Shown piece after piece: positions 45,518 through 64,000 of a DNA stretch of 64,000 bases. Origin of the DNA: Chloroflexota bacterium (GTDB taxonomy: Bacteria > Chloroflexota > Anaerolineae > Anaerolineales > UBA4823); NCBI GenBank assembly GCA_029265355.1, contig JAJUJL010000007.1, positions 62,001 to 126,000 on the forward strand. The letters run 5' to 3'. How positions within the stretch are numbered: position 1 is the stretch's first letter; each line of letters starts with the position of its first letter. A model generated the notes under the pieces. It ran no database searches. It was not told the DNA's origin and saw only the letters and a program-made list of their open reading frames with translations. The translations under genes and the position numbers were made by a program.

Positions 45518-45782
45518 CTATAGCCTCCTGTGATGAGTTGACCACGGTTGATCGCGCGCTGGGGAGCACGCCTGCCAGAACTTTCGCCAGAGCGATATCC
45601 TCCTCTCGCACTGGTACTTATTTCCTATATCAACTCTACATCAGTTTGGATAAATATGCAAGAAGTCAGATTGTTCAAATGATTATTGGGGAATTTTGAC
45701 AGGCGTCACCCATCAAAAAATACCACAACTATCCCCCATTTTGGCAAGTGGGCTATACTTAAAATATCGGAGGATCTTTCCT

Positions 45783-46679: not shown

Positions 46680-46691
46680 GAAGCTGTTCGC

Positions 46692-47738
46692 ATGCAAGCC
46701 ATTACACGACGTGATTTCTTGCGCACCCTGGCCCTTGGCGCTGGGGCGCTGGCGCTGCCCGCTGGCCTGGCAGGCTGCCAGGCGGATGGAACCGCGACGC
46801 TTCCGCCCACGCAGGCCCAAGCCGCCTCCTGGCAAACTGCCGCCGCCAGCGCTGCGCCCAGCCGGACACCCCAGCCATCTCCAGAAGCGGAGACCAGCAG
46901 CCCATCGACCGCCACCAGCGCGCCCGCTCCCCACCTGGCGGTGGCGCGCAATGGCGAACCGCAAGAGATGGTGCGCCGGGCTATCGCGGCATTGGGTGGC
47001 ATTGCTCAATTTGTTCCCCAGAACAGCACCGTGATCATCAAGCCCAACATCTGCACCGGCTATCACAGCTATGAATACGCCGCCACCACCAACCCGTGGG
47101 TCGTCGCCGCCCTGGTCAGTCTGTGCCTGGAAGCCGGCGCTCGAAAGGTGCAGGTGATGGACCACCCCTTCGGCGGCCCGCCAGCCCAGGCATACGTGAC
47201 CTCCGGAATCGCCGAGCAGGTGCACAGCGCCGGCGGCGAGATGGTGGAAATGGCGCGCTTCAAGTTTCTCTCCACCCCCATCCCCGCTGGCAGGAGTTTG
47301 AGGCAGGCAGAAATCTACGATGAGATCTTGACGGCCGATGTGTTGATCAATGTGCCCATCGCCAAGCATCACAGCCTGGCGCGCCTGACACTGGGCATGA
47401 AAAACCTGATGGGCGTCATCCAGGATCGCTCCGCCATCCACCAGGACCTGGGTCAGCGCCTGGCAGATTTGAGCTCGCTGGTGAGACCCGCGCTGACCGT
47501 AGTGGATGCGGTGCGCATGCTGATGGCGAATGGACCGACCGGCGGCAGCCTGGACGATGTGGTCCAGGCCAATACCGTGATCGCCAGCGCTGACATCGTC
47601 GCTGCTGACAGCCTGGCAGCCACGCTGTTCGGTTTGCAGCCCGAAGACCTCAGCTATGTGCGCGCCGGCGTCGAGATGGGCTTGGGACGCAGCGACCTGG
47701 CTGCCCTGCGCATCGAGGAGATCGATCTTGGCGGCTAA
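46692..47738 (+). CDS. Tat-exported DUF362 protein
   Basis: A 348-aa protein with a Tat signal (TRRDFLRTLALGAGALALPA, residues 5-24), possibly also a lipobox (AGC, Cys about 30), and a Ser/Thr/Pro-rich linker to about residue 75. The DUF362 domain is then recognisable by STVIIKPNICTG and NVPIAKHHSLARLTLGMKNLMG. DUF362 proteins are often fused to, or beside, polyferredoxins and are believed to be redox-linked; the activity is unknown. Its end overlaps the next gene by 11 bases, so both are made together. Confidence 0.85.
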   Translation: MQAITRRDFLRTLALGAGALALPAGLAGCQADGTATLPPTQAQAASWQTAAASAAPSRTPQPSPEAETSSPSTATSAPAPHLAVARNGEPQEMVRRAIAALGGIAQFVPQNSTVIIKPNICTGYHSYEYAATTNPWVVAALVSLCLEAGARKVQVMDHPFGGPPAQAYVTSGIAEQVHSAGGEMVEMARFKFLSTPIPAGRSLRQAEIYDEILTADVLINVPIAKHHSLARLTLGMKNLMGVIQDRSAIHQDLGQRLADLSSLVRPALTVVDAVRMLMANGPTGGSLDDVVQANTVIASADIVAADSLAATLFGLQPEDLSYVRAGVEMGLGRSDLAALRIEEIDLGG

Positions 47739-49371
47739 GCAGCGCACAGGACCCGGCGTGGGCGGCGCCTGGCGCCGACTGCGGCGGCTCACCCAATGGA
47801 TCAGCCTGGGGGTGTTCGTGCTCCTCGTGCTGGCGTTGCCTTCCGCCTGGCCAGCCTGGCTGCGGCAGCTTCCCATGCAGCTCGATCCTTTGACCAGCCT
47901 GGCGCAAGCGATAGCGTCCCACCAGGTGGTGAGCGGCGCGCTGGTCGGGTTGGGTGTACTGGCGCTGGGACTTATCTTTGGGCGCGGCTGGTGCGGCTGG
48001 GTCTGCCCCCTGGGAACTTTGTTGGACGGCCTTACCCCCCGCCGCCGGCCGGTCAAGCGCAAAGCGCCCCGCGCCCACCGGCAGGCTGGCGATGATCCGC
48101 GCTGGCCACCCGATTCCTGGCGCAAGATAAAATACCTGTTGTTGTTAGCCGTGCTGGCAGCCGCCCTGGTGGGCAGCACGCTGCTGCTGGTGCTGGACCC
48201 GCTCACTATCCTGCTACGCGGCCTGGGAAGCGGACTGCTGCCGCTCTTCGACGCGCTGGCGCGCGGGCTGGAAACCCGCCTGTACCAGGTACCGGCGCTG
48301 CGCCAGGCGGTGACCGCCCTCGACCAGGCCTTGCGCCCGGCGCTTCTGCCGGTCGACCCGCTGGCAGCGCGCGCCCCCTGGCTGATGGCGGCCGTGCTGG
48401 CGAGTGTGACGCTGCTGAACCTGGTTGCGCCGCGCTTCTGGTGCCGCTACCTGTGCCCGTTGGGGGCGTTGCTGGGCGTGCTCGCCCGCTTTGCGCTGGT
48501 GCAGCGACGGGTGAACGAAGCGTGCAAAAGCTGTGGGCTGTGTGCTCGCGCCTGTCCCACCGGCGCGATCCAGGAACAGCGCGGTTATGCCAGCGACCCG
48601 GCGGAATGCACCCTGTGCCTGGACTGCCAGCCGGCTTGCCCGCGCCAGGCAATCGGCTTCCAGGGTTATGATCTACGTCAATCACTGCTGCGCCAAGAAT
48701 ACGACCCCAACCGGCGGGAAGCTCTACTGGTGCTGGGAGGGTCGCTGGCTGGCGCCTGGCTGGTCGGGCAACCCTGGGCGGCAGGCGCAACCTCCCAGGC
48801 CCTGCAACCGCCCGGCGGCGCTCAGAATCACCTGGTAGATAAGTGCATCCGCTGCGGCGCCTGTGTGCGCGCCTGTCCCACCGGCGCGCTGCAGCCCGCC
48901 ATGCTGGAAGCCGGGTTGGAAGGCCTGTGGTCTCCGGTGCTCATCCCTCGCCTGGGCTATTGCGATTACGGCTGCAACACTTGCGGTAGCGTCTGCCCGG
49001 TGGAAGCCATTCCCCGCCTGGAACTGGCTGACAAGCGCCGGCAAGTAATTGGCGTCGCTGTCATCGATCGCCAGCGCTGCCTGGCGTGGAGCGGTCAAAG
49101 CCCGTGCATCATCTGCGAAGAGATGTGCCCGGCGCCCACCAAAGCCATCTCGCTGGAGAGCACGCCGGTGAAGGCGCCCGGCGGCGAATCGGTCATCCTG
49201 CAAACGCCCATCGTGCACCCGCGGCGCTGCATCGGCTGCGGCATCTGCGAGTACAAATGCCCGGTGGAAGGCGCAGCCGCGATACGCGTCTACCCTGCTG
49301 GCGTCACTTTTCACGGTGCGGGCGCCGGGGAAGGGTCGCACGGGGAACGCCGCCGCAGAGGCCAGCCGTGA
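47728..49371 (+). CDS. NapH-NapG-like fused multi-cluster membrane ferredoxin
   Basis: A 547-aa membrane protein. The N-terminal half resembles NapH/NosR-type quinol dehydrogenases: membrane segments with the two signature sites GRGWCGWVCPLG and FWCRYLCPLG, then two [4Fe-4S] motifs (CKSCGLCARACP, CTLCLDCQPACP). The C-terminal half resembles NapG/MauM: CIRCGACVRACP, CNTCGSVCP, CIICEEMCP and CIGCGICEYKCP, four more clusters. In E. coli these are separate genes. Start TTG 47728 has GAGGAG upstream; the ATG-like frame at 47656 lies inside DUF362. Likely moves electrons from quinol to an exported acceptor. Confidence 0.82.
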   Translation: MAAKQRTGPGVGGAWRRLRRLTQWISLGVFVLLVLALPSAWPAWLRQLPMQLDPLTSLAQAIASHQVVSGALVGLGVLALGLIFGRGWCGWVCPLGTLLDGLTPRRRPVKRKAPRAHRQAGDDPRWPPDSWRKIKYLLLLAVLAAALVGSTLLLVLDPLTILLRGLGSGLLPLFDALARGLETRLYQVPALRQAVTALDQALRPALLPVDPLAARAPWLMAAVLASVTLLNLVAPRFWCRYLCPLGALLGVLARFALVQRRVNEACKSCGLCARACPTGAIQEQRGYASDPAECTLCLDCQPACPRQAIGFQGYDLRQSLLRQEYDPNRREALLVLGGSLAGAWLVGQPWAAGATSQALQPPGGAQNHLVDKCIRCGACVRACPTGALQPAMLEAGLEGLWSPVLIPRLGYCDYGCNTCGSVCPVEAIPRLELADKRRQVIGVAVIDRQRCLAWSGQSPCIICEEMCPAPTKAISLESTPVKAPGGESVILQTPIVHPRRCIGCGICEYKCPVEGAAAIRVYPAGVTFHGAGAGEGSHGERRRRGQP

Positions 49372-50246: not shown

Positions 50247-50318
50247 GCGGGTGTAGTTCAGCGGTAGAACGTTTGCTTCCCAAGCAAAATGTCACGGGTT
50301 CGATTCCCGTCACCCGCT
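50247..50318 (+). tRNA. tRNA-Gly (anticodon CCC)
   Basis: A 72-nt cloverleaf. The acceptor stem GCGGGTG (50247-50253) pairs with CACCCGC (50311-50317) with discriminator T, as in bacterial tRNA-Gly. The anticodon stem TTTGC/GCAAA encloses TTCCCAA, giving anticodon CCC, which reads GGG. The T-arm CGGGTTCGATTCCCG is standard. No CCA is encoded. A promoter and a terminator flank it. Confidence 0.96.
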
Positions 50319-50319
50319 C

Positions 50320-50358
50320 AACCCCAAAGGCTCTCAGCGCCTTTGGGGTTTTATTATT
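50320..50358 (+). terminator. Intrinsic terminator after tRNA-Gly
   Basis: A 12-bp stem AACCCCAAAGGC (50320-50331) / GCCTTTGGGGTT (50339-50350) with a 7-nt loop, followed by TTATTATT. It starts directly after the tRNA 3' end, so the tRNA is a single unit. Confidence 0.85.
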
Positions 50359-50507: not shown

Positions 50508-50891
50508 ATGACGTCACGCAGCCCAACGATTTTATATGTGGAAGACAATCCCGATAACCGCACGCTGGTGCGGCGTATCCTGATGGCAGAGGGTTTCCAG
50601 GTGGTGGAAGCGGAAAGCGCCAGCCACGCCGTGCAAGCCTTGCAATCGGTGCGTCCGGATCTGATCTTGATGGACATCAATATGCCAGATATGGATGGTT
50701 ATACCTTGACCGGTAGATTGAAACGCGATCCGCGCATGCACACCATTCCAATCATCGCCCTGACTGCCAATGTGATGAAAGGCGACCGGGAGCGCACGCT
50801 GGATGCCGGCTGTGATGGATATATTCAAAAGCCCATCGACGTAGATACCTTTTCGTCACAGATCAATCAATTCCTGGGAGGCCGTCAATGA
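50508..50891 (+). CDS. Single-domain response regulator (CheY/DivK-like)
   Basis: A 127-aa receiver domain without output domain. The acidic pocket is EDN (about residues 13-15), the phosphorylated Asp is in LILMDINMPDMDG, and TAN (Thr) and KP (Lys in IQKPID) complete the site. It resembles DivK-type stand-alone receivers that act by protein contact. ATG 50508 has AGGAG upstream; the longer frame from 50289 runs back through the tRNA. Its stop overlaps the start of a second receiver gene (ATGA). A run of GAF sensors follows, and no kinase is seen in the window. Confidence 0.93.
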   Translation: MTSRSPTILYVEDNPDNRTLVRRILMAEGFQVVEAESASHAVQALQSVRPDLILMDINMPDMDGYTLTGRLKRDPRMHTIPIIALTANVMKGDRERTLDAGCDGYIQKPIDVDTFSSQINQFLGGRQ

Positions 50892-51382
50892 ACCAGCCTG
50901 GGACAGATGAACTTACCAACAACGCGCTGGCAAAGACGGCGCGCCTGGGAGGCGCGCGAGAAACTCGCTCGCTGCGCAAATCGATCCCCGAAAACGCCAC
51001 GGTGCTGGTCGTGGAAGATAATGTGGCCAATTTTGTGCTGATCGCCCGGTTGTTGGGGTACATGGGCATCCACTGCGAGTGGAAGACATCTGGCTACGAG
51101 GTGGTCGAGTACGCTGATAGCCTGCCGCGCCTGGATTTGATCCTGATGGACATCCGCCTGCCCTACGAGGATGGCTACGGCGCGCTGGAGAAGATCCGCT
51201 CTTCGCCGCGCTTGCGCGACGCGCTGGTGGTAGCGGTAACTGCTGAAGCCAGCCCGGAACAAATCAAGAAAGCCCGCCTGGCTGGTTTCGATGGCTTCAT
51301 GGGCAAACCCCTCGATCCCGATCGCTTTCCGGATCAAATCCGCAGCATACTTGCCGGAGAAAGCGTCTGGGAGTTAAGCTGA
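50888..51382 (+). CDS. Single-domain response regulator, second copy
   Basis: A 164-aa receiver with an N-terminal extension of about 35 residues (polar and basic, no clear fold). The receiver has VVEDN, the phosphorylatable Asp in LILMDIRLPYEDGYG, a Thr in AVTAEA and Lys in MGKPLDPD, so it should be phosphorylated. It is translationally coupled to the preceding receiver and lies 29 bases before the first GAF protein. The two together may be alternative targets of one phosphorelay. Confidence 0.92.
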   Translation: MNQPGTDELTNNALAKTARLGGARETRSLRKSIPENATVLVVEDNVANFVLIARLLGYMGIHCEWKTSGYEVVEYADSLPRLDLILMDIRLPYEDGYGALEKIRSSPRLRDALVVAVTAEASPEQIKKARLAGFDGFMGKPLDPDRFPDQIRSILAGESVWELS

Positions 51383-51411
51383 GCGCTGGCGCCACGGGAG
51401 ACTGCAATTTC

Positions 51412-53577
51412 ATGACCGACCAGTCGACATGTCCACACTGTGGACAACCTGTGAATATTTACATGCAGAGCTGCCCGCTGTGCCATGCCGACCTGGCAGG
51501 TGCTCAACCCGTGACAGGCATCCGCAGTCCGCTGGTGCCCACCTCGCCGGAGGGACTCATCCCGCGCCTGGGGGATATCCTGATCGAACGAAAGTTGATC
51601 AGCCGGCAGCAGCTCGAGGCGGCTCTGGCGCGCCAGCGCGAATCCATCGCCCAGGCAGGCAGCATCGGTCGCCAAATCTTACTGGGGCAAATCCTGGTGG
51701 AGAATGGCTGGATCACCCGTGAAGTCCTGGATCAGGTGGTGACCGAGCAAATCATGGGCTTGCACAGCGCTCTGCAAGAAAACAACCGCAAGCTCGAGCA
51801 GCGCGTTCAGCAGCGCACCGGTGATTTACAGGGGCGCCTGCTGCAGATTCGCACCGCCGCAGAGATCACCCAGGTTGCCATCTCCGCCAGCAACCTGGAG
51901 GAGATGCTCTCTCGCACGGTTAAATTGATTGCCGAGCGCCTGAATTATTATTGTGCGTCAATTTACCTGATCAACGAAATGAGCGGAGCCCTCGAGCTGG
52001 CCGCCAGCAGCATGCCTGCCAGCATGGAACGGAAGGTGCGGCAGACCCACGATGTGCAATTTCCCAAGACTATGGTGGCGTGGGCGGTAGCCAACCGAAA
52101 AGCGCGGGTGGCAGCCGATGTCAGCCGCGAGCCGCTTTACTGGGTTGACCCGTTGCTCCAGGATACCCGCTCGGAAGCGACCTTGCCCATTGCCTTGGGC
52201 GATCAAGTGCTGGGTGTTTTGGATGTCCATTCCAACTGGGTGAACGCATTCGATGACGAGGCGGTGACGGTTTTGCAGACCATCGCCAATCATATCGCTG
52301 CCGTGATCCAGAACTTCCGCCTGCTGGATCACACTCGCAAGAGCCTGGAGCAGTCGCAGCGCCTGAACGAGACCAACCACCGCTTGAACCTGGCTCAAAA
52401 TGCTCAGTCGGTGTTCAGCGAAGTGGTGGATTACCTGAAGGCTTCATCGGTCCCCTCTCTGCTGTTGGTCGCCGAGGGCAACCAGTTTCGCGTCATCGCG
52501 GGTCATCTTCCCAACAAACAGAAAAACAGCGAGGCGCGGCTGCCAGGCATGATTGCGGTGCCTCCTGAGAAGTTGCTGGCGCAGATGCCGCCAGGCCAAT
52601 TAACCTTCAGCCTGCCCAGGTCAAAGAACACCACCCAACTTCAAAACAAAGCCAACAGTTGGATCTCCACATTGATGCGCGTGCATGATTGGTTGGAATG
52701 CGACACGATCACTTTGATACCGGTGCGCCAGCAAAATGCGCTGATGGCAATGATGGTATTGGCGCGACCTGCCAGTCAGTTTGCTGAGTCGGTAATCAAG
52801 GGATCCAATATCTGGCAGCCTTATATCAGCCTGGCGGAACAGGCCACGACCACGCTGGAAAAGCTGTCCGCCTTCGAAAATCTCCAGCGGCAGATCTCCG
52901 CCATGCAATCGCTGGATGCAATCACGAAAGTGATCGCCCTGGAAACTGAGCCAGGATCGCTGTACCGCGCCATCCACCAGCAGTTGCGGGAACTGTTGGG
53001 AGAGCTGGATTTCTTGCTGGCTGAATACCGCGAGGCCAATCAAACCATCACCATCCCATACGCCTATGAGAACGGCGAGGAAATCAATCTCCCTTCGATG
53101 CCGCTGGGCCAGGGGCTGACCTCGGTGATCATCAAGTCCAAACAGCCCCTGCTGCTGAGCGGCAATGTCGAGCAGCAAGCCCAACGCCTGGGAGCGCGGG
53201 TGATTGGCTTGCCGGCCAAATCATGGATGGGCGTACCCCTGATCGTCGCCAACCAGGTGATCGGAGCAATGATCCTGCAGGATACGCGCCGGGAGAACCG
53301 CTTCGGTGAAACAGAGCTGCGCCTGGTGAACACACTGGCGACCCAGGTGGCGATTGCCGTGCGCAACGCGCGCCTGTACCAGGAGACCAGCCGGCTGGCA
53401 GAGCAAGAGCGCCTGGCGTCGGATTTGACCGCTCGGGTCTGGTCATCGCCCGATATCGAGACCATTTTGCGTGTGGCATTGGAAGACCTGGGGAGCAAGC
53501 TGCAAGCCGCAGAAGCGATGATCGAGTTGGATGTTCAGGCTGAGGCTCTCGACGGCGGGCCTGCCGCATCTGGATAG
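51412..53577 (+). CDS. Soluble zinc-ribbon/GAF sensor protein (array member 1)
   Basis: A 721-aa protein without membrane segments. Residues 7-24 hold a zinc ribbon (CPHC...CPLC). Residues about 50-115 (RLGDILIERKLISRQQLEAAL, GQILVENGWITREVLDQ) resemble the N-terminal domain of T2SS GspE/MshE ATPases, known to bind c-di-GMP in some. A coiled coil leads to a GAF domain (about 150-300) and a second GAF (about 505-660). The C-terminus (ASDLTARVWSSPDIETILRV...) matches tails of the next four genes. No kinase or output domain is present. Start ATG 51412. Confidence 0.85.
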   Translation: MTDQSTCPHCGQPVNIYMQSCPLCHADLAGAQPVTGIRSPLVPTSPEGLIPRLGDILIERKLISRQQLEAALARQRESIAQAGSIGRQILLGQILVENGWITREVLDQVVTEQIMGLHSALQENNRKLEQRVQQRTGDLQGRLLQIRTAAEITQVAISASNLEEMLSRTVKLIAERLNYYCASIYLINEMSGALELAASSMPASMERKVRQTHDVQFPKTMVAWAVANRKARVAADVSREPLYWVDPLLQDTRSEATLPIALGDQVLGVLDVHSNWVNAFDDEAVTVLQTIANHIAAVIQNFRLLDHTRKSLEQSQRLNETNHRLNLAQNAQSVFSEVVDYLKASSVPSLLLVAEGNQFRVIAGHLPNKQKNSEARLPGMIAVPPEKLLAQMPPGQLTFSLPRSKNTTQLQNKANSWISTLMRVHDWLECDTITLIPVRQQNALMAMMVLARPASQFAESVIKGSNIWQPYISLAEQATTTLEKLSAFENLQRQISAMQSLDAITKVIALETEPGSLYRAIHQQLRELLGELDFLLAEYREANQTITIPYAYENGEEINLPSMPLGQGLTSVIIKSKQPLLLSGNVEQQAQRLGARVIGLPAKSWMGVPLIVANQVIGAMILQDTRRENRFGETELRLVNTLATQVAIAVRNARLYQETSRLAEQERLASDLTARVWSSPDIETILRVALEDLGSKLQAAEAMIELDVQAEALDGGPAASG

Positions 53578-53587
53578 AGGTGTTTGA

Positions 53588-56461
53588 GTGGAAGGGATAA
53601 ACCTGGACCAAACGCTGCAATACCTGGCCTACATACTGGCGCTGAGCGAGTTGATCATCGGCCTATATGTCTGGGTCCTGAACATCCAGCACACCGCGAA
53701 CCGGCACGTGGGTGGGCTGATGCTGGTCATTGCTGCCAACAGCTTTGCGATTGGCACACTCCTGGAGACGGGCAGCGCCAGGCAGGCGGAATGGCCAGCA
53801 ATCCTGTTAGCCGCCACGACCCCCGCCATCCAACCCCTGCTGCTGCTCACCACCGTCAGCCTGCTGCGACCTGCCTGGCTGCAAACCAGCCGCCTGCGCT
53901 GGGCATTGCGCCTGGCTTACCTGCTCACCCTTCTCCCTATCATCATCACCGCCATCGACGTGCAATTTGGGGCGGGGCTCTGGTATTCCGGCATGGGCAG
54001 TTCTCCGTATGGCGATGGCATCCTGCGGCTGGAATCTTTCACTGCCGGTCGTTTGAACGAGATCATCCGCCTGCTGACCTTTGGCATCTCGTCAACATTG
54101 ACCATCCTGGTCTGCCTTTACATCGCAGCTCTCGACCGGAAATCTCCCAAAATGGCGCGCGGCCTGGCCTGGCTGCTGCTGGCAGCGGACATTGCTGCTG
54201 GCGTCTCCCTGGTAGCGCTTGCCAGCGTCATCCCGCAAGCCATCGCCGAGCTGCTCACCAGCGCCATCTTTATGCTGGTGTATGCCTTTGTAGCCTTCCG
54301 ACAAATGGTCTCAGAGCGGCGCGTGCAGCGCGGTCGGCTGCAAGTGCGGCTGCTGGCGCTCAACCTGGTGGTGGTGGTGCCTGTACTGTTAGGGCTGACG
54401 TATTTCATCATTTCGCAATCCCGTCGCCTGCTCGAAGAAGACGCCTCTCGCAACCTGCAGCAAACCAGCCAAAACCTTGCTTCCAGCACGATGCTCTGGC
54501 TGGAAAGCAACACTCGCACGCTGGCAGCCCTGGCAAACCAGCCCGATATCCGCAGCATGGACGCCAGCAGGCAAATCCCGGCTTTGCAGGCCTTTGCCTC
54601 CGTCTTCCCCGAGATCTACCTGGTCAGCACCACCGATCTCACCGGCAGGAATATTGCCCGCAGCGATGGTCAAAGTGCAGTTGACTACAGCCGGCGAAGC
54701 TGGTTCCAGCAAGCCGTTCAGGGGGCGCCGCTGGCATTGGAGACACTGATCGAGCCCAGCAGTGGGCAACCGGTCCTGGTAGCTTCTGCGCCGATACGCG
54801 ACGAACAGGGTCGAGTGGCAGGTGTGATCATGTTCGCCACGCAGCTCAGCGTCATCTCAGAAAAGGTGGCCGCCACGAGCATCGGGCGGCTGGGCTACGC
54901 CTACGTGATCAACGAATCCAACCTGGTGATCGCTCACCCGGAAGAGGCGTTTACGATGGTGCTGCGCGATCTCAGCCAGCACCCGGCCGTGCAAGCCGTG
55001 CGCCGCGGCCTCAACTCTCCGGTGACTTTTGGCAGCGCAGGCGGCATGCAGTGGAAAGCCTTTGGCCAGGTGTTGCCCAACGGCTGGGCAGTCATCGTGC
55101 AAGCGCCGCAGAACGAGCTGCAATCCTCGTTGGGCGCCTTCCAGCGCACCTCCTGGATCGCGCTGGGGGTGGCCTCTGGGTTGCTGCTGCTGCTGAGCTA
55201 TATTTCGGTGCGGCAGAGCTTTGAACCGCTGAGCGCGCTGACGCGGGCCGCGCAGGCGATTGGTTCAGGCGATCTGCAGGCGCGTGCGCCGGTGCTGACC
55301 GACGATGAAGTTGGCGCGCTGGCTCAAACACTCAATAAAACCACCAGCCAGCTCGGTGAGTTGGTCGCAAACCTGGAGACGCGGGTCGCAGATCGCACAC
55401 AGGCTCTGGAGCGCCGCGCCATCCAGCTCCAGGTGGCCGCCGATGTAGCCCGCGAGGCGGCTGGCATCCGCCAGTTGGATGAGCTGCTGAACCATGTGGT
55501 TCATCAAATTTCAGAGCGCTTCGGCTTTTACCATGCCGGTATCTTCCTGTGCGACCAGGTGCATGAGTATGCGGTGCTCCAGGCAGCTTCCTCGGAAGGC
55601 GGCCGGCGCATGCTGGAGCGCGGCCATAAACTGAAAATTGGCCAGGTGGGCATCGTCGGCTATGTCACAGGCTCTGGCGCAGCCCGCATCGCTTTGGATG
55701 TGGGAGCAGATGCGGTTTTCTTCAATAATCCTGACCTGCCACAGACCCGCTCAGAGATGGCGCTGCCGCTCAAAGCAGGCAACCAGGTGATCGGGGCGCT
55801 GGATGTGCAATCCACCCTGCCGTCGGCTTTCAAGGAAGAGGATATCGCCATCCTGCAGATCCTGGCAGATCAACTTGCGCTGGCGATCCAAAACGCCCGG
55901 CTGATGGAAGAAAGCCGGCAATCCATGCAAGAATTGGAGAAACGTTACCGCAACGATGTGCAGCAGAGCTGGGCAGCCCGCCTGTCGCACCGTCCACTGC
56001 GCTATCGCTATGAACGCATGGGCGTTTACCCGGTCACTGCGGTTGACTCGGGAAAACCCGGCAATGGCAATGGTCGTGCTGGGGCACCCGGCTCGAATCA
56101 GCCAGAATCATTCCAGCCGGAGGATGGGCGCACCCTGCGAATTCCGCTGCAGTTCAGAGGCGCAAAGATTGGCGCCTTGCTGCTGCGCCGGGAGATGGAT
56201 CAACCCGCCTGGAGTGAAAAAGAAGCCGCCGTGGCTCAATTCGCTGCCCGGCAGATCGCCCTGGCTTTGGAAAATGCTCGCCTGCTGGAAAGCACCGTTC
56301 TGACGGCCGAACGGGAACACCAGGTCGCGGAAATCACCCACAAGATGCTCTCCGCCAACGGCATCGACGCCGTCTTGCGCACCGCCATGCAAGAATTGAG
56401 CCGCTATCTCTCGGTTACCCAGGGCATGATCCAATTGGAAAGGGTGGGCAACAATGAGTGA
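53588..56461 (+). CDS. Membrane GAF sensor with 7TM-like and Cache domains (array member 2)
   Basis: A 957-aa protein. An N-terminal seven-helix membrane region (about residues 10-240, like histidine-kinase N-terminal 7TM sensors) is followed by another membrane segment (about 258-278), an extracellular Cache-type domain (about 280-510), a membrane helix (about 517-535), HAMP, coiled coil, a full GAF domain (about 640-780) and a partial GAF with a tail. No kinase is present. GTG 53588 has AGAGG upstream, 10 bases after the previous stop; its 3' end overlaps the next gene by 8 bases. Confidence 0.85.
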   Translation: MEGINLDQTLQYLAYILALSELIIGLYVWVLNIQHTANRHVGGLMLVIAANSFAIGTLLETGSARQAEWPAILLAATTPAIQPLLLLTTVSLLRPAWLQTSRLRWALRLAYLLTLLPIIITAIDVQFGAGLWYSGMGSSPYGDGILRLESFTAGRLNEIIRLLTFGISSTLTILVCLYIAALDRKSPKMARGLAWLLLAADIAAGVSLVALASVIPQAIAELLTSAIFMLVYAFVAFRQMVSERRVQRGRLQVRLLALNLVVVVPVLLGLTYFIISQSRRLLEEDASRNLQQTSQNLASSTMLWLESNTRTLAALANQPDIRSMDASRQIPALQAFASVFPEIYLVSTTDLTGRNIARSDGQSAVDYSRRSWFQQAVQGAPLALETLIEPSSGQPVLVASAPIRDEQGRVAGVIMFATQLSVISEKVAATSIGRLGYAYVINESNLVIAHPEEAFTMVLRDLSQHPAVQAVRRGLNSPVTFGSAGGMQWKAFGQVLPNGWAVIVQAPQNELQSSLGAFQRTSWIALGVASGLLLLLSYISVRQSFEPLSALTRAAQAIGSGDLQARAPVLTDDEVGALAQTLNKTTSQLGELVANLETRVADRTQALERRAIQLQVAADVAREAAGIRQLDELLNHVVHQISERFGFYHAGIFLCDQVHEYAVLQAASSEGGRRMLERGHKLKIGQVGIVGYVTGSGAARIALDVGADAVFFNNPDLPQTRSEMALPLKAGNQVIGALDVQSTLPSAFKEEDIAILQILADQLALAIQNARLMEESRQSMQELEKRYRNDVQQSWAARLSHRPLRYRYERMGVYPVTAVDSGKPGNGNGRAGAPGSNQPESFQPEDGRTLRIPLQFRGAKIGALLLRREMDQPAWSEKEAAVAQFAARQIALALENARLLESTVLTAEREHQVAEITHKMLSANGIDAVLRTAMQELSRYLSVTQGMIQLERVGNNE

Positions 56462-57911
56462 GGCTGCCCCCTGGTTACGGCCCTTGATTAACCTCTGGAA
56501 TGGTTTGAGCTACCGGGCGCGCTATGCGTTGCTTGGGGCGCTGTTTGGCACGCTCTTCCCGCTCACTTCGAGCCTGATCTGGGTGATCACGAACCGACTT
56601 CAGCTCAATCTTGATAATTTCTTACGCGCCCAGGTGAATAACCCGTTGCAATGGATGATCGATAGCGCGCCGTTCTTCCTGGGGCTTTTTGCCTCCTTTG
56701 CAGGTCAACGTGAGGATGGCCTGCAAGCGGTCAAACGGGAGCTCGAAAACCGCCTGGCTGAGCGCAGTCGCATGGTCGTGGAGCTCGATTCGCTGCGCAA
56801 TCGCCTGGAGATGCAGGTATCCAAACAAGTTGCGCAGTTGAAACTGACCACCCAGGTTGCCAGCGATGCGCTTCAGGCCAAGGACCTGCAGCAGATCATG
56901 GACCTGGTCGTGCGATTGATCTCTGAACGGCTGGGTTTCTATCACGCAGGCATTTTCCTGCTGGACCCCACCCACGAATACGCCGTGCTGCGCGCCAGCT
57001 CATCGAAGGGTGGGCAAGTGATGCTCAGTCGCAACCACCGTCTACGGGTGGGGCGGGAGGGTATAGTCGGCAATGTTGCAGCCCACGGCGAGCCGCGCGT
57101 GGCGCACGATGTAGGCAAGGATGCCGCCTTTTTCAATAATCCCGACTTGCCAGCCACTCGCTCCGAGGTGGCTTTGCCCTTGAGAATTGGCGACAGCGTG
57201 TTCGGTGTGCTGGATATCCAATCGGTCAAAATGGGCGATTTCAGCGCGGAAGATGTAGCGGTGTTGCAAACCATGGCAGACCAGGTCTCGATGGTTATCG
57301 AGAATGCGCGCCTCGCTTCAGAAAGGCGCGAGGCGCTGCAGCAGCTCAGGGAATTCCAGGCCCGGCAGAGCCAGGATGCCTGGCGCACAGCCCTGGCCGA
57401 TCGCCCACATGGCGTGGTGTATGACGGCTTGAGCATCCACTCCATCCAGGCCTGGCAACCGCCGACAAACGCGCCGCGCCAATTTCCGACCAAAGATCCT
57501 TATGTGTTGCACCAAAAAATTGTGTACCAGGATATCCCCATCGGAACTTTGGCGCTGAGCAGGCCGGCAGAGCGCGGCGCCTGGAGCGAGGCCGAGAAAA
57601 GATTTGTCCAGTCTGTTGCATCGCAGATCGCCCTGGCAGTCGAAAATGCGCGCCTGTTGGATGAGAACCAACGCCGTGCGCAAAGCGAGCAATTGCTGGG
57701 CGAGATCAGCGCTCGCGCCCACGCCTCCCTGGACCTGGACGCGGTGATGAAAATCTCGGTGCAGGAAATTGGCAAAGCGTTGGGCGCCATGCGGGTGGAG
57801 ATGCGATTGGACTCGGATAGCCCCTCCAACAACACGAGCAGCGCCACGCTCGCCGCCCAGTCCCACAATGGGCATAAACCCTCCCAAAGCCAGACGGCGG
57901 AGGAGAGCTGA
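56454..57911 (+). CDS. Membrane GAF protein, short form (array member 3)
   Basis: A 485-aa protein with two N-terminal membrane segments (about residues 20-45 and 65-85) and almost no extracellular part, then a coiled coil, a GAF domain (about 145-285, HAGIFLLDPTHEYAVL, GKDAAFFNNPDLPATRSE), a linker with a conserved Trp, a partial GAF (about 345-405) and the tail module. No Cache or HAMP domain is seen, so it might be a hub or adaptor rather than a sensor. It overlaps the previous gene by 8 bases and the next starts 2 bases on. Confidence 0.82.
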   Translation: MSEAAPWLRPLINLWNGLSYRARYALLGALFGTLFPLTSSLIWVITNRLQLNLDNFLRAQVNNPLQWMIDSAPFFLGLFASFAGQREDGLQAVKRELENRLAERSRMVVELDSLRNRLEMQVSKQVAQLKLTTQVASDALQAKDLQQIMDLVVRLISERLGFYHAGIFLLDPTHEYAVLRASSSKGGQVMLSRNHRLRVGREGIVGNVAAHGEPRVAHDVGKDAAFFNNPDLPATRSEVALPLRIGDSVFGVLDIQSVKMGDFSAEDVAVLQTMADQVSMVIENARLASERREALQQLREFQARQSQDAWRTALADRPHGVVYDGLSIHSIQAWQPPTNAPRQFPTKDPYVLHQKIVYQDIPIGTLALSRPAERGAWSEAEKRFVQSVASQIALAVENARLLDENQRRAQSEQLLGEISARAHASLDLDAVMKISVQEIGKALGAMRVEMRLDSDSPSNNTSSATLAAQSHNGHKPSQSQTAEES

Positions 57912-57912
57912 G

Positions 57913-59880
57913 ATGATGTCGAAGATGGCCCTTCAACGCCGCATCTCGATCGGATTCCTGGTGATGACGCTGCTGGTAGTGGCTGCCGGCCTCAGCGGCG
58001 TGGCCTTCACACAATCTGCCGAGAGGGCCAACCAGGTGGTGCGCAACAGCATACACGTGCAAAGCCAGGTCAACGCCGTGCGCAAGGCGTGGTTGGCGAG
58101 CATGGACGTGCTCGGCGAAGCCCTGGCCTCTTCCCCTACCACCCAGGCGCAGATCGATCCACTGGCGAGCCGATTCCAGGCAAATATCGCTATCCTGGAG
58201 CAAACGCTGCGTGAGCTGCAGAAACAGTCTCCTGGGGCGAGCGCGGCTGAGAGGCAGCAGAACCTGACGATATTAAATGCGGCTGTGCAGAGCGCTTCGG
58301 TTTTGAGGCGCAGCGGGGAAGAAATCCTGCGCCAGGCAAGCCAGCCAGCAGGGCTGGCTGCCGCTGCCCAAAGCGCCCACCTGCAAACACTGCAGCGCGG
58401 TCTCTCTCAAAACCTGGACATCTTGCTCGAAAATACCCAGCAGGATATCGATCGGGCGTTCCAAAACTCACAGCGCATGCGCAACCTGGCGCGCCTGGCG
58501 TGGATGGGATTGACCGCATTGGGGGCGTTGCTCGGCTTCGTATTTACCATCATTTTCACCCGCTCAGTCGTGCGCCCCATCCAGGAACTGACCCAGGTGG
58601 TGCAACGGGTGACCTCGCGCGATTTCAGCCCGCTCAAGCCCAGCCCAAGCGCGGATGAATTGGGCGATTTATGGTCCTCCCTGGCTTTGCTCACCGACTG
58701 GTTGCGCGAATCGTATGAAAATCTCGAAACGCGCGTCAATCTGCGCACGCGCGAGCTGGAGCGGCGCTCTACGCAGATGCAAGTTGCGGCTGAGGTGGCG
58801 CGTGACGCCACCAGCGTGCGCAACCTGGAAGCGTTGCTGAGCAATGCCGTAGAGTTGATCCGCGGTCGCTTTGGCTTTTACCATGCCGGTATCTTCTTGA
58901 ATGACGAGCGCGGGGAATACACCATCCTGCAGGCAGCCACAGGAGAAGCCGGGCGGCGCTTGTTATCCCAGGGTCACCGTTTGCGCATCGGCGAAGTTGG
59001 CCTCGTGGGGCAGGTGGCCCAAACCGGTAAGCCGCGCATCTCCTCCGAAACCAGCGGAGATAACATCTCGCCAGTCATGAGCGATGCCCACGTTGACAGC
59101 AGGCAGGGCAGCGCCCTTGACGACCGAAACCCGCTGCTGCCAGCCACACGCTCGCAGATTGCACTGCCGCTCAAAATTGGCGAGCGCATCATTGGTGTGC
59201 TGGATGTGCACAGTCAATTCGCCAATGCTTTCAGCCAGGACGACGTCAACGCGATGCAAATCTTGGCCGATCAACTGGCGGTTGCTATCGAAAACGCCCG
59301 CCTGATCAATGATTACCAGGAAAGCCTGCGCGAGCTGGAAGCAGTTTACCTGCGCCTGAGCCGCAGCGCCTGGGCCGACATCAAACGCTCGCGGAACAAC
59401 CCGGGTTATGTCTACGACCTGAACGGCATCAGGCCGCTCGCAGAATTGGATGAAGGCGATGCGCCTTCGAACAAGCCGGCATCACCGGTTGAAGCCGGTA
59501 TAAAGAAAGTTGAAGTGCCGCTGCTGGTGCGCGGCAACCGCATTGCGAGCCTGGAGGTCTGGCTGCAGGAGTCGCAGTACAACCCGCAGGTTGAAAACTT
59601 CCTGCAATTGCTGGGTCCCCGCCTGAGCCAGTCGCTGGAAACCGCCCGGCTGTACCAGGAGACTCAGGAACGCGCCGCTCGGGAACGCCTGGTGGGAGAA
59701 ATTTCTGGACGTCTACGCGAAACCCTCAATATCGATTACGTGCTGCGCACGGCGGCTGCTGAAATCCGCAGCGCGCTGGGATTGAACGACCTGACCATCC
59801 GGCTCGGGGATGCAGCGCTGCATCCGGCCAGCGGTGGGAATGGCAGCGCCATCGACGCAGGATCAATCGAAAAGGTTTAG
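57913..59880 (+). CDS. Membrane GAF sensor with four-helix input domain (array member 4)
   Basis: A 655-aa protein: membrane helix (about residues 10-32), a helical extracellular domain (about 33-190) like the four-helix-bundle ligand-binding domain of chemoreceptors, second membrane helix (about 196-218), HAMP (about 218-272), coiled coil, GAF (about 290-470), partial GAF and tail. No kinase or methyl-accepting domain. ATG 57913 follows GGAGGAGA; two further in-frame ATGs (57916 and 57925) lie just downstream. The longer frame back to 57769 lies inside the previous gene and is rejected. Confidence 0.83.
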   Translation: MMSKMALQRRISIGFLVMTLLVVAAGLSGVAFTQSAERANQVVRNSIHVQSQVNAVRKAWLASMDVLGEALASSPTTQAQIDPLASRFQANIAILEQTLRELQKQSPGASAAERQQNLTILNAAVQSASVLRRSGEEILRQASQPAGLAAAAQSAHLQTLQRGLSQNLDILLENTQQDIDRAFQNSQRMRNLARLAWMGLTALGALLGFVFTIIFTRSVVRPIQELTQVVQRVTSRDFSPLKPSPSADELGDLWSSLALLTDWLRESYENLETRVNLRTRELERRSTQMQVAAEVARDATSVRNLEALLSNAVELIRGRFGFYHAGIFLNDERGEYTILQAATGEAGRRLLSQGHRLRIGEVGLVGQVAQTGKPRISSETSGDNISPVMSDAHVDSRQGSALDDRNPLLPATRSQIALPLKIGERIIGVLDVHSQFANAFSQDDVNAMQILADQLAVAIENARLINDYQESLRELEAVYLRLSRSAWADIKRSRNNPGYVYDLNGIRPLAELDEGDAPSNKPASPVEAGIKKVEVPLLVRGNRIASLEVWLQESQYNPQVENFLQLLGPRLSQSLETARLYQETQERAARERLVGEISGRLRETLNIDYVLRTAAAEIRSALGLNDLTIRLGDAALHPASGGNGSAIDAGSIEKV

Positions 59881-59883
59881 ATT

Positions 59884-62082
59884 ATGAAGATCGCTCGCCA
59901 ATTGCTCATCCCCACGCTGCTTTGGTTTGCCCTGCTGGCAATTGCCTTGTTGAGTTTTGCCTATTTCAACAACGCCAATGCCAACCGGCAGATGGAAACC
60001 GAGCAATGGAAGCAATTGGAATCCAGCCTGCACAGCCGCCTGCAAGCCAGCAAAGATTTCGCCCTGGCCTTGGCGATCGAAGTCGCCAATGATCCTGAAG
60101 TGCAACGGGCTTTTGCGCAGCAGGATCGCGCCCGCCTGGCAGAGCTGACCCTGACAGCTTACAAAACCCTGGACGACATGTACGGCATTCCCCAGGCGCA
60201 ATTCCACCTGCCGCCAGCGATTTCGTTCCTGCGCCTGCACGCCCTGGAAACCTACGGCGACGATTTGTCGAGCTTCCGCTTCACCGTGCTGGCAGCCAAC
60301 CAGCAGCAACAGCCAGTCGCCGGCTTGGAGATCGGGCGCGGCGGTTTAGGGATGCGCGGCGTCGCTCCTGTCGCCTACCAGGGACAGCACATCGGCACTT
60401 TTGAATACGGGCTCAATCTCGATCAGAAGTTCCTGGAGCACCTGAAGGCGGATTTCGGCGTGGACGCCCAAATCTTGCTGCGGCGTGGGCCAGCCGAGAT
60501 CGCCACCATTGAGGAGGCGATCAGCAAATCAGCCGGGCCAGGCCAAGAATGGCTGCTGCAAGCCAGCACGCTCGACCAACCAATTTTTGCTCCAGCCGAG
60601 GGATATGTCTCAGCCCTGCAGAATCGCAGCCACACAAGCCAATTGCGCCAGGGATCAGCGCAGTGGGCCATCTTGACCGTCCCCCTGACGGACTATTCTG
60701 GACAGGTGATCGGCGCGCTTGACTTGATTGCGAACCGCTCTGCCATGGTGCAGGCGCAAAACCGGCGCGTGGTGCTCATCCTTGGGATCTTATCCGCCAT
60801 GCTCACGCTGGGCGGCATTGGATTCTCTCACCTGGTGCGGCGCGCCATGCGCCCCATCGCCGAGCTGACCCGCACCGCCAGCGCCATCGCCGCTGGAGAT
60901 CTGAGCCAAAACGCCGTGGTGCGAGATGCCAATGAGCTGGGGCAGTTGGCGCAGGCCTTCAATTCGATGACTGCCCAATTGCGGGTCTTGGTGGGCAACC
61001 TGGAGCGCCGTGTGGAAGAACGCACCGCCGCGCTGGAGCAGCGTTCGGTGCAGCTTCAGACCGCAGCCCAGGTGGCTCGCGATACGCTGGCAGTGCGCGA
61101 CCTGGACCAGCTTCTCAACCTGGTCGTCAACCTGGTCAGGGAAAAGTTTGGCTTCTATCACGCTGGCATCTTCCTGGTGGATCAAGATCGCAAATATGCT
61201 GTGTTGAAAGCCGCCACCGGTGAAGCGGGTCGTGAAATGTTAGCCCGCCATCACCGCCTGGAAGTCGGAAAAACCGGCATCGTCGGATATGTCACCGCCA
61301 CCGGGAAAGCGCGCATCGCTTTGGATGTTGGCGAAGATGCGGTGCACTTTCAAAACCCTTTGCTGCCCAGGACTCGCTCTGAGATGGCGCTGCCCCTGAT
61401 TGTCGGCGAAGAAATCATTGGCGCCTTGGATGTGCAAAGCACCGAGGCCGCCGCCTTCAGCGAGCAGGATATCGAGATCCTGCAAATCCTGGCAGACCAG
61501 ACCGCCGTGGCCATCGCCAATGCGCGCCTGTTCGCCCAGAACCAGGCTGCGCTGGACACCGCCCGCCGGGTGTACACCGAGCTCAGCCAGGTTGCCTGGC
61601 AGGAGCGCCTGCAATCCCAATCCGTGGGCTACCTGGCAGACGGAACAGGCGTGCAGCCCTTGCCGCCTGGATACACTCCGCAAGGGGAAGCCTCCCAACT
61701 GGAAGAGCTGCAGTTGCCCATCATCGTGCGAGACCAGGTGATCGGCGCTATCTCCGCTCACAAGCAACCCCTGGCCGGCAAATGGGACGAACAGGAGTTG
61801 GTCTTGATGCACACCCTGGTCGATGAGCTGAGCCAGGCCCTGGAAAGCGCCCGCCTGTTCGAAGAGACCCAGGAGCGCGCTTTGCGTGAACGGCTGGTGG
61901 GTGAGATCACTTCCCGCATGCGCTCGACTCTGGAGATCGAAACCGTGATGCAAACGGCTGTGCGCGAGATCCAACAAGTTCTAAAACTGGCGGAGGTCGA
62001 GCTGCGCCTGGGAACCCCCAGCGAGGCCAGCCCGGCGTCAGTAGCTGACCAGACAACGCCTGTGGTGGAGCGAGAGCGATGA
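59884..62082 (+). CDS. Membrane GAF sensor with Cache-like input domain (array member 5)
   Basis: A 732-aa protein: membrane helix (about residues 10-28), extracellular domain (about 30-285) of Cache-like type ending VPLTDYSGQVIGALDL, membrane helix (about 295-318), HAMP (about 320-375, RPIAELTRTASAIAAGDLSQ), coiled coil, GAF (about 415-545), partial GAF (about 600-665) and tail. It has no kinase. It starts 3 bases after the previous stop. The extracellular domain is unrelated by eye to that of member 4, so the inputs differ. Confidence 0.83.
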   Translation: MKIARQLLIPTLLWFALLAIALLSFAYFNNANANRQMETEQWKQLESSLHSRLQASKDFALALAIEVANDPEVQRAFAQQDRARLAELTLTAYKTLDDMYGIPQAQFHLPPAISFLRLHALETYGDDLSSFRFTVLAANQQQQPVAGLEIGRGGLGMRGVAPVAYQGQHIGTFEYGLNLDQKFLEHLKADFGVDAQILLRRGPAEIATIEEAISKSAGPGQEWLLQASTLDQPIFAPAEGYVSALQNRSHTSQLRQGSAQWAILTVPLTDYSGQVIGALDLIANRSAMVQAQNRRVVLILGILSAMLTLGGIGFSHLVRRAMRPIAELTRTASAIAAGDLSQNAVVRDANELGQLAQAFNSMTAQLRVLVGNLERRVEERTAALEQRSVQLQTAAQVARDTLAVRDLDQLLNLVVNLVREKFGFYHAGIFLVDQDRKYAVLKAATGEAGREMLARHHRLEVGKTGIVGYVTATGKARIALDVGEDAVHFQNPLLPRTRSEMALPLIVGEEIIGALDVQSTEAAAFSEQDIEILQILADQTAVAIANARLFAQNQAALDTARRVYTELSQVAWQERLQSQSVGYLADGTGVQPLPPGYTPQGEASQLEELQLPIIVRDQVIGAISAHKQPLAGKWDEQELVLMHTLVDELSQALESARLFEETQERALRERLVGEITSRMRSTLEIETVMQTAVREIQQVLKLAEVELRLGTPSEASPASVADQTTPVVERER

Positions 62083-62128
62083 TTTTTCCGAAAGAATGCC
62101 CACGGTTATGCACACCAGGAGCACTGGC

Positions 62129-64000
62129 ATGAAGCGCACGAGATCTTCAACCTTGTTCAACAGCCTGCGCACCCGTTTTCTGGGCTTGATCATGCTCATG
62201 GCGCTGATCGGCATCCTGGCAACTGTGGTGGTCGCCATCACGTCCGCCCGCGCCACGGGCCGCTACGCCCTGGAAACCAGCAGCCAGAAACTGCGCCAGC
62301 AGGCCGAGGCAAGCCTGGTAGAGCTGACGCGCCGCAGCGCTCGAGAAAATGATTTGATCCTGGCAAATATCAATCAAAATGTGCAGGAGGCGGCCTCCTT
62401 CGTAGCGCAGAGCATCGCCAGCGCTGGATCGAGCGATACCCGCTCGATCTGGTCTGCCCGGGAGCACATGATCCAAGGCGCGCAGGGACAATACAGTAAC
62501 AGTCCGGATGAGCCGGGCAGCGTCTTCCTGCCAAACACCACCCCACTCACCGACCAGGTTTGGACGGAGATGCAGTTCACCGCCTACCTGGACCTGCTCT
62601 TCCCAACCTTGATTGCCAACAACCCTTCGGTCGAGGCGGTGTATTTTGCCACGCCCAACGACATCGTGCGGTACTATCCCAATGTGAACCTGGGAGCGGT
62701 GCTCCCCCCCGATTTCCGCGCCACACAGCGCCTGTGGTACAGCGGCAGCCTGGAAAACAGCCAGGATGGAAGCGTGTGGTGGACGCCCGCTTACCAGGAT
62801 GCGACCGGGTTGGGCATGGTGACCACGGCTGCATTGCCGGTCTTCAGCGCCGACGGCCGGCTGCTCGGCGTGGTCGGCTTCGATGTCACCCTGACCGAAA
62901 TGAAGAACAACATCGAACAAACCCGCTACTTCCTCTCCGGTTACAGCTTCCTGGTGGATGACCAGGGGCGCGCCCTGGCGCTGCCTGAGCAGGGGTACCA
63001 GGATCTACTGGGCGAGGCCGCGCCAGCCCTCGAATTCGGCTCCGACATGCGCCAGGCGCGCCCGGAGTTCCAACCCGTGCTGGCAGATATGCTGGCCAAC
63101 CAAACTGGCTTCAAGAGCATCACCATTGACGGCGAAGAGCTTTTCATCGCCTACTCGCCGCTCAGCAGCACGAATTGGAGCCTGGGCAGCGTGGTGCGCG
63201 CCAGCGAAGTCCTGGCGTCCGTCTTCAGCCTGCAGACTTCGCTCGAGTCCAGCACACGCCAGGCGATTGTGCTGCGCATCCTGCCCTTCAGCGCCATCGT
63301 GCTGCTGTTCACGATCACTGCCAGCCTGGTTATGACCAATCGCACGGTGCGCCCCATCCAGGAGCTGGCGGGCATTGCCAGCCGCCTGGGCCGCGGTGAG
63401 TGGCAAGCCCCCATCCCAGGCTACTCTCAATCCGAAATCAACGCCCTGGCGGAAGCGCTGCGCCGCATGCGGGATCAGCTTTACCAATCGTTCCAGGAAT
63501 TGGAGGCGCGCGTGCAGGAGCGCACCCAATCCCTGCAGCGTCGCGCCAGCCAGATGAAAGCCGCTGCCGAGGTCGGCCATGCGGCGGCAACCATGCTGGA
63601 ATTGAACGAGTTGCTCACCCGCGTCACTCACCTGATCAGCGATCGCTTTGGTTTTTACCACACCGGCATCTTCTTACTGGATCAGGATAAGGAATTCGCC
63701 GTGCTGCAGGCAGCCAATAGCCCCGGTGGGCAGCGCATGCTGGCCCGGCATCACCGCTTGAAAGTGGGGCAGGAGGGCATCGTCGGGCGGGTGACGGCCT
63801 CCGGTAAAGCGCACATCGCCCTGGATGTGGGCGAAGACGCCGTTTACTTCAACAACCCCGACCTCCCCTCAACCCGCTCTGAAATGGCGTTGCCGCTTCG
63901 GGTCGGCGACCAGATCTTCGGCGCCCTGGACGTGCAAAGCCAGGAAGCCAACGCCTTTCAGCAAGAAGATATCGAAGTGCTGCAGTTGCTGGCAGACCAG
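62129..64000 (+). CDS. Membrane GAF sensor with dCache domain, 3' end outside window (array member 6)
   Basis: An open frame of 624 codons with no stop before the window edge. A membrane helix (about residues 16-38) precedes a large extracellular double Cache domain (about 45-380; the strands FATPNDIVRYYP and GVVGFDVTLTEMK are typical), a second membrane helix (about 382-404), HAMP (RPIQELAGIASRLGRGEW), coiled coil and a GAF domain beginning near residue 490 (FYHTGIFLLDQ near 507). Start ATG 62129 has AGGAG upstream. Whether a kinase follows the GAF cannot be seen. Confidence 0.85.
   Translation, partial: MKRTRSSTLFNSLRTRFLGLIMLMALIGILATVVVAITSARATGRYALETSSQKLRQQAEASLVELTRRSARENDLILANINQNVQEAASFVAQSIASAGSSDTRSIWSAREHMIQGAQGQYSNSPDEPGSVFLPNTTPLTDQVWTEMQFTAYLDLLFPTLIANNPSVEAVYFATPNDIVRYYPNVNLGAVLPPDFRATQRLWYSGSLENSQDGSVWWTPAYQDATGLGMVTTAALPVFSADGRLLGVVGFDVTLTEMKNNIEQTRYFLSGYSFLVDDQGRALALPEQGYQDLLGEAAPALEFGSDMRQARPEFQPVLADMLANQTGFKSITIDGEELFIAYSPLSSTNWSLGSVVRASEVLASVFSLQTSLESSTRQAIVLRILPFSAIVLLFTITASLVMTNRTVRPIQELAGIASRLGRGEWQAPIPGYSQSEINALAEALRRMRDQLYQSFQELEARVQERTQSLQRRASQMKAAAEVGHAAATMLELNELLTRVTHLISDRFGFYHTGIFLLDQDKEFAVLQAANSPGGQRMLARHHRLKVGQEGIVGRVTASGKAHIALDVGEDAVYFNNPDLPSTRSEMALPLRVGDQIFGALDVQSQEANAFQQEDIEVLQLLADQ

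Follow-up and report, generated by a model that had tools for sequence, protein, structure and literature searches.

We report on a 64,000-nucleotide stretch of a Chloroflexota genome (the window; positions 62001-126000 of contig C5, in a genome of 5.05 Mb) whose last part holds a same-strand row of two response regulators (RR1 and RR2) and six GAF-domain sensors without kinase domains (S1-S6). Beyond the window, the row continues with genes for a ParA-type ATPase and a hybrid histidine kinase, and then for PALP-REC (a receiver fused to an enzyme that resembles threonine synthase) and an EamA transporter. The kinase starts with a short peptide (the tag) that most proteins encoded 3′ of related ParA genes share. 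These genes probably encode a multi-receptor two-component array positioned by ParA, with the kinase as the ParA partner and the receivers and PALP-REC as outputs.

A Same-Strand Run of Sensors, ParA, Kinase, and Candidate Output Genes

A preliminary description, made from the letters of the window, had recognized the two receivers and the six same-strand GAF genes, which coordinates and Pfam matches bear out. It had also suggested a kinase elsewhere and advised looking for one past position 64000. The next stretch of the contig (L010; window position = L010 position + 61999) places a hybrid histidine kinase in the operon itself, as the second gene after the array. The earlier interpretation was half right and is partly supported; the ParA, PALP-REC, and EamA genes change the picture most. 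The genes, all on the plus strand, are as follows (aa, amino acids).

50508-50891, plus strand: RR1, single-domain response regulator, 127 aa (Pfam Response_reg, 104.1 bits)
50888-51382, plus strand: RR2, single-domain response regulator, 164 aa (Pfam Response_reg, 64.4 bits)
51412-53577, plus strand: S1, GAF protein without membrane helix, MshE-like domain, no kinase, 721 aa (Pfam, NCBIfam)
53588-56461, plus strand: S2, polytopic membrane part, dCache_1, HAMP, and GAF, no kinase, 957 aa (Pfam)
56454-57911, plus strand: S3, short membrane part and GAF, no kinase, 485 aa (Pfam, AlphaFold2, Foldseek)
57913-59880, plus strand: S4, membrane HAMP-GAF sensor, no kinase, 655 aa, or 703 aa from a TTG start at 57769 (Pfam)
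59884-62082, plus strand: S5, dCache_3-HAMP-GAF sensor, no kinase, 732 aa (Pfam)
62096-64000 in the window, whole gene L010:97-2658, plus strand: S6, dCache_1-HAMP-GAF sensor, no kinase, 853 aa (Pfam)
L010:2680-3468, plus strand: ParA-type ATPase, 262 aa
L010:3437-7195, plus strand: hybrid histidine kinase, 1252 aa, N-terminal tag MSRQKLSNRLDHLFADL, GAF domains, HisKA, HATPase_c, and receiver (Pfam)
L010:7238-9028, plus strand: PALP-REC, threonine-synthase-like pyridoxal phosphate (PLP) enzyme plus receiver, 596 aa
L010:8976-10097, plus strand: EamA transporter, 373-aa open reading frame whose true start probably lies later

The genes lie head to tail from 50508 past 64000. RR1 and RR2 overlap by 4 nucleotides (nt), and the junctions from RR2-S1 to S5-S6 measure +29, +10, -8, +1, +3, and +13 nt, the +1 nt at S3-S4 assuming that S4 starts at ATG 57913 (the reading frame from TTG 57769 overlaps S3 by 143 nt). 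The ParA and kinase genes come directly after the array within one run of overlapping or touching genes, and themselves overlap by 32 nt.

By sequence, the ATPase is a member of the ParA/MinD group: the deviant Walker A motif KGGVAKTT with its signature lysine and the Walker B aspartate of DCP are invariant in 15 of 15 copies. No ParB gene lies beside it, its neighbors being S6 and the kinase. The kinase has the predicted make-up of a hybrid two-component histidine kinase, with HisKA (76.1 bits), HATPase_c (106.6 bits), and receiver (55.1 bits) all above cut-off and an H-box reading MSHELRTPLN; a PAS-like part falls below cut-off. A Pfam scan of ten proteins (RR1, RR2, S1-S6, and the kinase among them; E up to 0.01) found no Hpt domain in any of them, and direct phosphotransfer from the kinase is therefore assumed.

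PALP-REC can be classed as an enzyme fused to a receiver that has a phospho-acceptor aspartate; its lysine loop, ASTGN and GHT motifs, and the receiver aspartate and lysine are kept in 24 of 24 complete copies. It resembles threonine synthase in its zinc-ribbon-like cysteines, lysine loop SFKDR, ASTGN, and [TS]GH. It differs from that enzyme in its DRQ and GHT variants, its C-terminal receiver, and scores below both cut-offs (NF006050, 247.8 vs 303 bits; TIGR00260, 146.6 vs 167.1 bits); a second PALP-REC copy in the genome likewise scores 247.7 bits against NF006050 (cut-off 303). That PALP-REC might be the cell's only threonine synthase can be rejected, because the genome encodes a separate one, in a cluster on contig C4 described below, that scores 564.6 bits against the cut-off of 303. 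As to the last gene of the run, amino-acid exporters are among the known EamA transporters.

GAF matches above cut-off are present in every one of S1-S6, and kinase, cyclase, phosphatase, and methyl-accepting chemotaxis protein (MCP) signaling domains were found in none of them (Pfam, E up to 0.01), the only MCP-like match in S6 being the sensor domain PF22673. The preliminary description had said as much of the five sensors complete in the window, and the sixth, now complete, is no different; the overlooked kinase domain that it had named as the finding to overturn it was detected by Pfam in no sensor. Inputs vary. S1 begins with zinc-ribbon-like cysteines, visible in the sequence, and carries an MshE-type cyclic di-GMP (c-di-GMP) binding domain above the NCBIfam cut-off (47.9 vs 38 bits), through which the array may be connected with c-di-GMP. 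S2 has nine hydrophobic stretches, and S4 has no named periplasmic domain by Pfam at E up to 0.01. Of the two membrane helices earlier ascribed to S3, one is a clear hydrophobic stretch and the second is weak (peak 1.21). An AlphaFold2 model of S3 (mean pLDDT 80.9, pTM 0.51) runs from a long helix through GAF, a long helix, a four-strand remnant, and a long helix to a disordered end, in agreement with the previously described layout of GAF, partial GAF, and tail, and its top Foldseek matches are GAF domains.

A profile of the sensor GAFs and the last GAF of the kinase finds 24 matches in the genome at E 1e-12. The best seven lie in the operon and the next five in the C4 cluster, each scoring at least 114 bits, and the following match scores 88.6 bits; the sensor GAFs and the kinase GAF thus form, as judged by these scores, one subfamily. 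The two receivers differ in type, and RR2 is the better conserved (mean identity 62% for RR2-RR2, 56% for RR1-RR1, and 37% for RR1-RR2). The phospho-acceptor aspartate, threonine, and lysine of both are kept in 28 of 28 aligned loci, our own included; RR2 has all five receiver residues in 28 of 28, and one RR1 is truncated before the acidic pair.

An N-Terminal Tag on the Putative Partner of ParA

The tag is a short amphipathic motif, RL[DE]xLF-like, at the N-terminus of the protein encoded 3′ of ParA. We scanned 92 loci, in 86 of which that gene is readable, with start codons picked by a rule independent of the motif. It occurs in the first 30 residues of 76 of the 86 ParA partners versus 48 of the 663 remaining genes in these loci, and at positions 7-14 in 71 of 86 versus 6 of 663. 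No other kinase has it (0 of 22), other GAF1 genes have it in 22 of 169 cases, three of them at positions 7-14, and shuffled sequences yield it in a mean of 3.1 and at most 7 of 86. Examples from other loci are MSKRNRHLKQRLDELFS and MSERKKKVEAALNNLFS. Partners of every type carry the motif: 38 of 42 kinases, 10 of 12 GAF sensors, 13 of 16 that are neither, and 15 of 16 that are cut short. The first pattern, applied to the first 60 residues, had also required a net positive charge, and found 64 of 86 partners, 35 of 663 other genes, 0 of 22 other kinases, 18 of 184 other GAF1 genes, and 0.76 in shuffles; it was loosened because class-level copies are less basic. The motif is unlikely to be a by-product of the overlap between the ParA gene and the kinase gene, as it is present in 24 of 27 cases with overlaps of 1-19 nt, 4 of 5 with gaps, and 48 of 54 with overlaps of at least 20 nt.

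Among ten partners scanned, Pfam identifies four as CheW (102-135 bits against a cut-off of 23.5), each with a Pro/Ala-rich linker; three have PAS matches only, and the others comprise one kinase-like, one weakly TPR-like, and one WD40-like protein. The tagged CheW partners are:

L144:3295-4245: tagged CheW
L145:4013-4945: tagged CheW
L148:5759-6682: tagged CheW
L044:1829-2632: tagged CheW

The tagged partners L182:13074-15557 and L191:1840-4263, with their weak similarity to TPR or WD40-like domains, also contain a hydrophobic stretch and may be another cargo.

The tag also resembles the start of the genome's own ParB-type protein, encoded beside another ParA on contig C29, which begins MARKTGLGRGLDALIP. 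A partner with an N-terminal charged peptide is encoded beside ParA, as in known ParA positioning systems, the peptide being less basic outside the order. The kinase matches the description of ParA/MinD partners in a survey of ParA/MinD cargo (PMC10241942), the main text of which does not use the term 'histidine kinase', and may act as such a partner.

Conservation of the Locus

ParA homologues of at least 166 bits gave 63 hits in 51 of 101 genomes of the order, our own included. The order sample comprises 60 loci (our own locus, G036:C619, and G026:C164 being left out) and the class sample 20 of the 29 matches listed for other families within the class, all mapped with profile models from our own and related proteins. 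Stretches L033-L044 stand outside these counts, and four of them repeat contigs of other stretches; L159, L175, L178, L200, and L201 are outside the analysis, and L174, L176, and L177 were only mapped. The mapping script undercounts sensors, scoring none at L019 and L140 although the maps show them.

The synteny in relatives that the preliminary description wished to see checked is conserved. In the order, at least one kinase-less GAF gene precedes ParA in the chain in 48 of 60 loci, the number of upstream sensors varying from 0 to 7 per locus. A kinase lies directly downstream of ParA in 34 of 60 (12 are cut by the stretch end), and in 27 of these 34 a GAF of the sensor type adjoins the kinase core. 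PALP follows 27 of the 34 downstream kinases, with the receiver visible in 21 and three loci cut, and EamA comes directly after PALP in 14 of 60; when six cut loci (L153-L158) were read further, all six showed PALP-REC and then EamA. The two receivers do belong to the unit, as earlier proposed: a tandem pair occurs in 16 of the 60 loci from the order and in 11 of the 20 from the class, a further 26 and 6 ending too early to tell. Among the 20 class loci, sensors lie upstream in 4, a kinase lies upstream in the chain in 10, and a kinase lies directly downstream, together with PALP-REC, in 1; the commonest order there is kinase before ParA and sensors after it. The layout is more than chance, since this succession of gene types is found again in other families and genera.

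At E 1e-120, 45 of the 101 order genomes have PALP-REC, and identity ranges from 53-71% in the 44 genomes besides our own. At 28 places its gene is located 3-13 kb 3′ of ParA, on one contig and in the same orientation. ParA and PALP-REC occur together in 40 genomes, ParA alone in 11, PALP-REC alone in 5, and neither in 45, counts that are uncorrected for kinship.

That the ParA is a generic type present everywhere can be rejected in the order, where the locus type scores at least 166 bits and the next hit 135. In the class, 39 of 298 genomes match at 279 bits or more and the next at 240.6 bits (8 candidates scored per genome), and in a 251-genome sample of the phylum the best match outside the class reaches 242.6 bits (10 candidates per genome).

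A Paralogous Cluster and the Neighboring Genes

A cluster at C4:79380-91995 (L172/L173) repeats the layout, with three kinase-less GAF sensors, a kinase, PALP-REC, a receiver, and threonine synthase. Its first sensor has two CxxCH motifs in the extracytoplasmic part. Just before these sensors, L172:6798-8276 encodes a protein with several CxxCH motifs, perhaps a multihaem cytochrome, which has no NCBIfam match at E 1e-10.

The operon is flanked as follows:

50247-50319: tRNA-Gly, just 5′ of RR1
50320-50350: 12-pair terminator-like hairpin 3′ of tRNA-Gly, such matches being no commoner in the region than in shuffles

Upstream of these and separate from the operon, sucrase/ferredoxin-like, DUF362, and polyferredoxin-like genes occupy 45696-49371. 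Just past the operon, L010:10203-12678 (minus strand) holds a convergent OmpR-type regulator and a REC-GAF-HisKA kinase; similar minus-strand REC and REC-kinase genes follow EamA at L155-L157.

Proposed Mechanism and Alternatives

Our model starts from the observed gene order, domains, and conserved residues, and from the tag and its association with ParA. Six kinase-less receptors with differing inputs have a GAF core in common with one soluble hybrid histidine kinase, to which they would signal their state via GAF and coiled-coil contacts. The short basic amphipathic peptide at the N-terminus of the kinase would bind and stimulate the operon's ParA, which would distribute or position the kinase-receptor assembly. 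ParA-type ATPases play such a role for chemoreceptor clusters and carboxysomes. The kinase would phosphorylate RR1, RR2, and the receiver of PALP-REC; the activity of PALP-REC, whose PLP-binding site is intact, would be the metabolic output, and EamA may move its product or substrate.

We suggest more tentatively, as a broader view that we hold at somewhat less than even chances, that this is a sensory array not derived from chemotaxis proteins, with interchangeable GAF receptors, one hybrid kinase, a ParA that moves or spaces the array by the kinase tag, and phospho-control of a PLP enzyme. Because CheW partners within this ParA family bear that tag too, one positioning module would then serve two unrelated kinds of sensory array.

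Several observations weigh against a ParA-positioned array. First, the motif pattern was chosen post hoc from the sequences themselves, and the loci are related rather than independent, with 82 distinct N-termini among the 86 and four contigs present twice. Second, 10 of 86 partners miss the motif in the first 30 residues: it lies further in at L143, L146, and L149, takes a near form at L139 and L198, and is absent at L015, L042/L185 (one contig), L125, and L129. Six further loci yielded no readable partner: four of these stop at a contig end, L131 has a kinase bearing just a near form (KKRLEERLLALNED), and at L039 a partner gene is absent within 400 nt of ParA. Third, no sensors were scored at 12 order loci: six of these are CheW-type (four by scan, two by likeness), at L014, L015, L021, and L129 the partner of ParA is a PAS protein, kinase-like, or unnamed, and L019 and L140 are the script's undercounts. 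Fourth, at the thresholds used, 11 of the 101 genomes have ParA without PALP-REC and 5 the reverse, and outside the order the gene order differs and the motif is less basic. Finally, the C4 kinase is tagged (MAKRKDIQVRIDELFGRLG) but has no ParA gene beside it; it either uses the ParA of contig C5 or shows another use of the tag.

The kinase-less sensors might instead be independent titrators or antagonists of the kinase, acting by heterodimer inhibition as RetS does on GacS, with no array and with ParA as a further partner or switch. The GAF subfamily common to sensors and kinase would allow such heterodimers, and the variable number of upstream sensors would fit them. We nevertheless consider titration unlikely, as ParA and the tag persist from family to family, the tag occurring on CheW as well, which points to the positioning of assemblies. 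It is less probable still that ParA is itself the output, with the kinase using its N-terminal peptide to gate a ParA switch or to move other cargo under sensory control. The kinase itself bears the tag and could activate ParA, and the ParA gene lies between the sensors and the kinase; however, the CheW, GAF, PAS, TPR-like, and WD40-like proteins among the tagged partners make the tags look more like cargo labels than like one signaling output. An ordinary two-component operon in which ParA, PALP-REC, and EamA merely hitch-hike is very improbable given the synteny: kinases are indeed numerous in the genome (81 HATPase_c matches), but the gene order is kept across many families, PALP-REC keeps its 53-71% identity in the 44 other genomes that have it, and ParA and PALP-REC occur together in 40 of the 101 genomes.

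Relation to Known Systems

The closest functional parallel to a ParA-positioned array is found in MCP-CheA-CheW arrays with ParA-type ATPases (PpfA/TlpT, ParC/ParP), which also combine several varied-input receptors with a single kinase and with a ParA-type ATPase and a partner that has a charged peptide at its N-terminus; CheW with the same tag adjoins relatives of the ParA described here. Unlike those arrays, the ten proteins include no MCP signaling domain, CheA-type Hpt, CheW, CheR, or CheB, the receptors end in GAF units, and the HisKA hybrid kinase itself is tagged. The system resembles a chemosensory array in its proposed working but falls outside that family, and is a two-component system of new make-up joined to a ParA module.

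ParB, PomX, McdB, and other proteins that activate ParA/MinD ATPases likewise have a short N-terminal charged peptide, here encoded beside ParA, but the partner in the present loci is a histidine kinase or GAF sensor. The kinase shares HisKA, HATPase_c, and receiver with other hybrid histidine kinases (its best NCBIfam matches, HrmK, BarA, and TorS, are all below cut-offs), and differs from them in its N-terminal ParA-type tag and in that membrane input seems delegated to separate proteins. In the literature searched, by titles and the starts of abstracts and with subscription journals mostly outside the search, we found no description of a ParA-tagged histidine kinase, of kinase-less GAF arrays, or of a threonine-synthase receiver fusion.

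If the model is true, a PLP enzyme would be added to the outputs driven by receivers, an output that we did not find described in that literature. ParA positioning, so far associated with chromosomes, carboxysomes, division, and chemotaxis, would extend to a two-component kinase, with the 17-residue tag as a direct handle on it, and the order-wide rows of GAF proteins without an output domain would be given a function.

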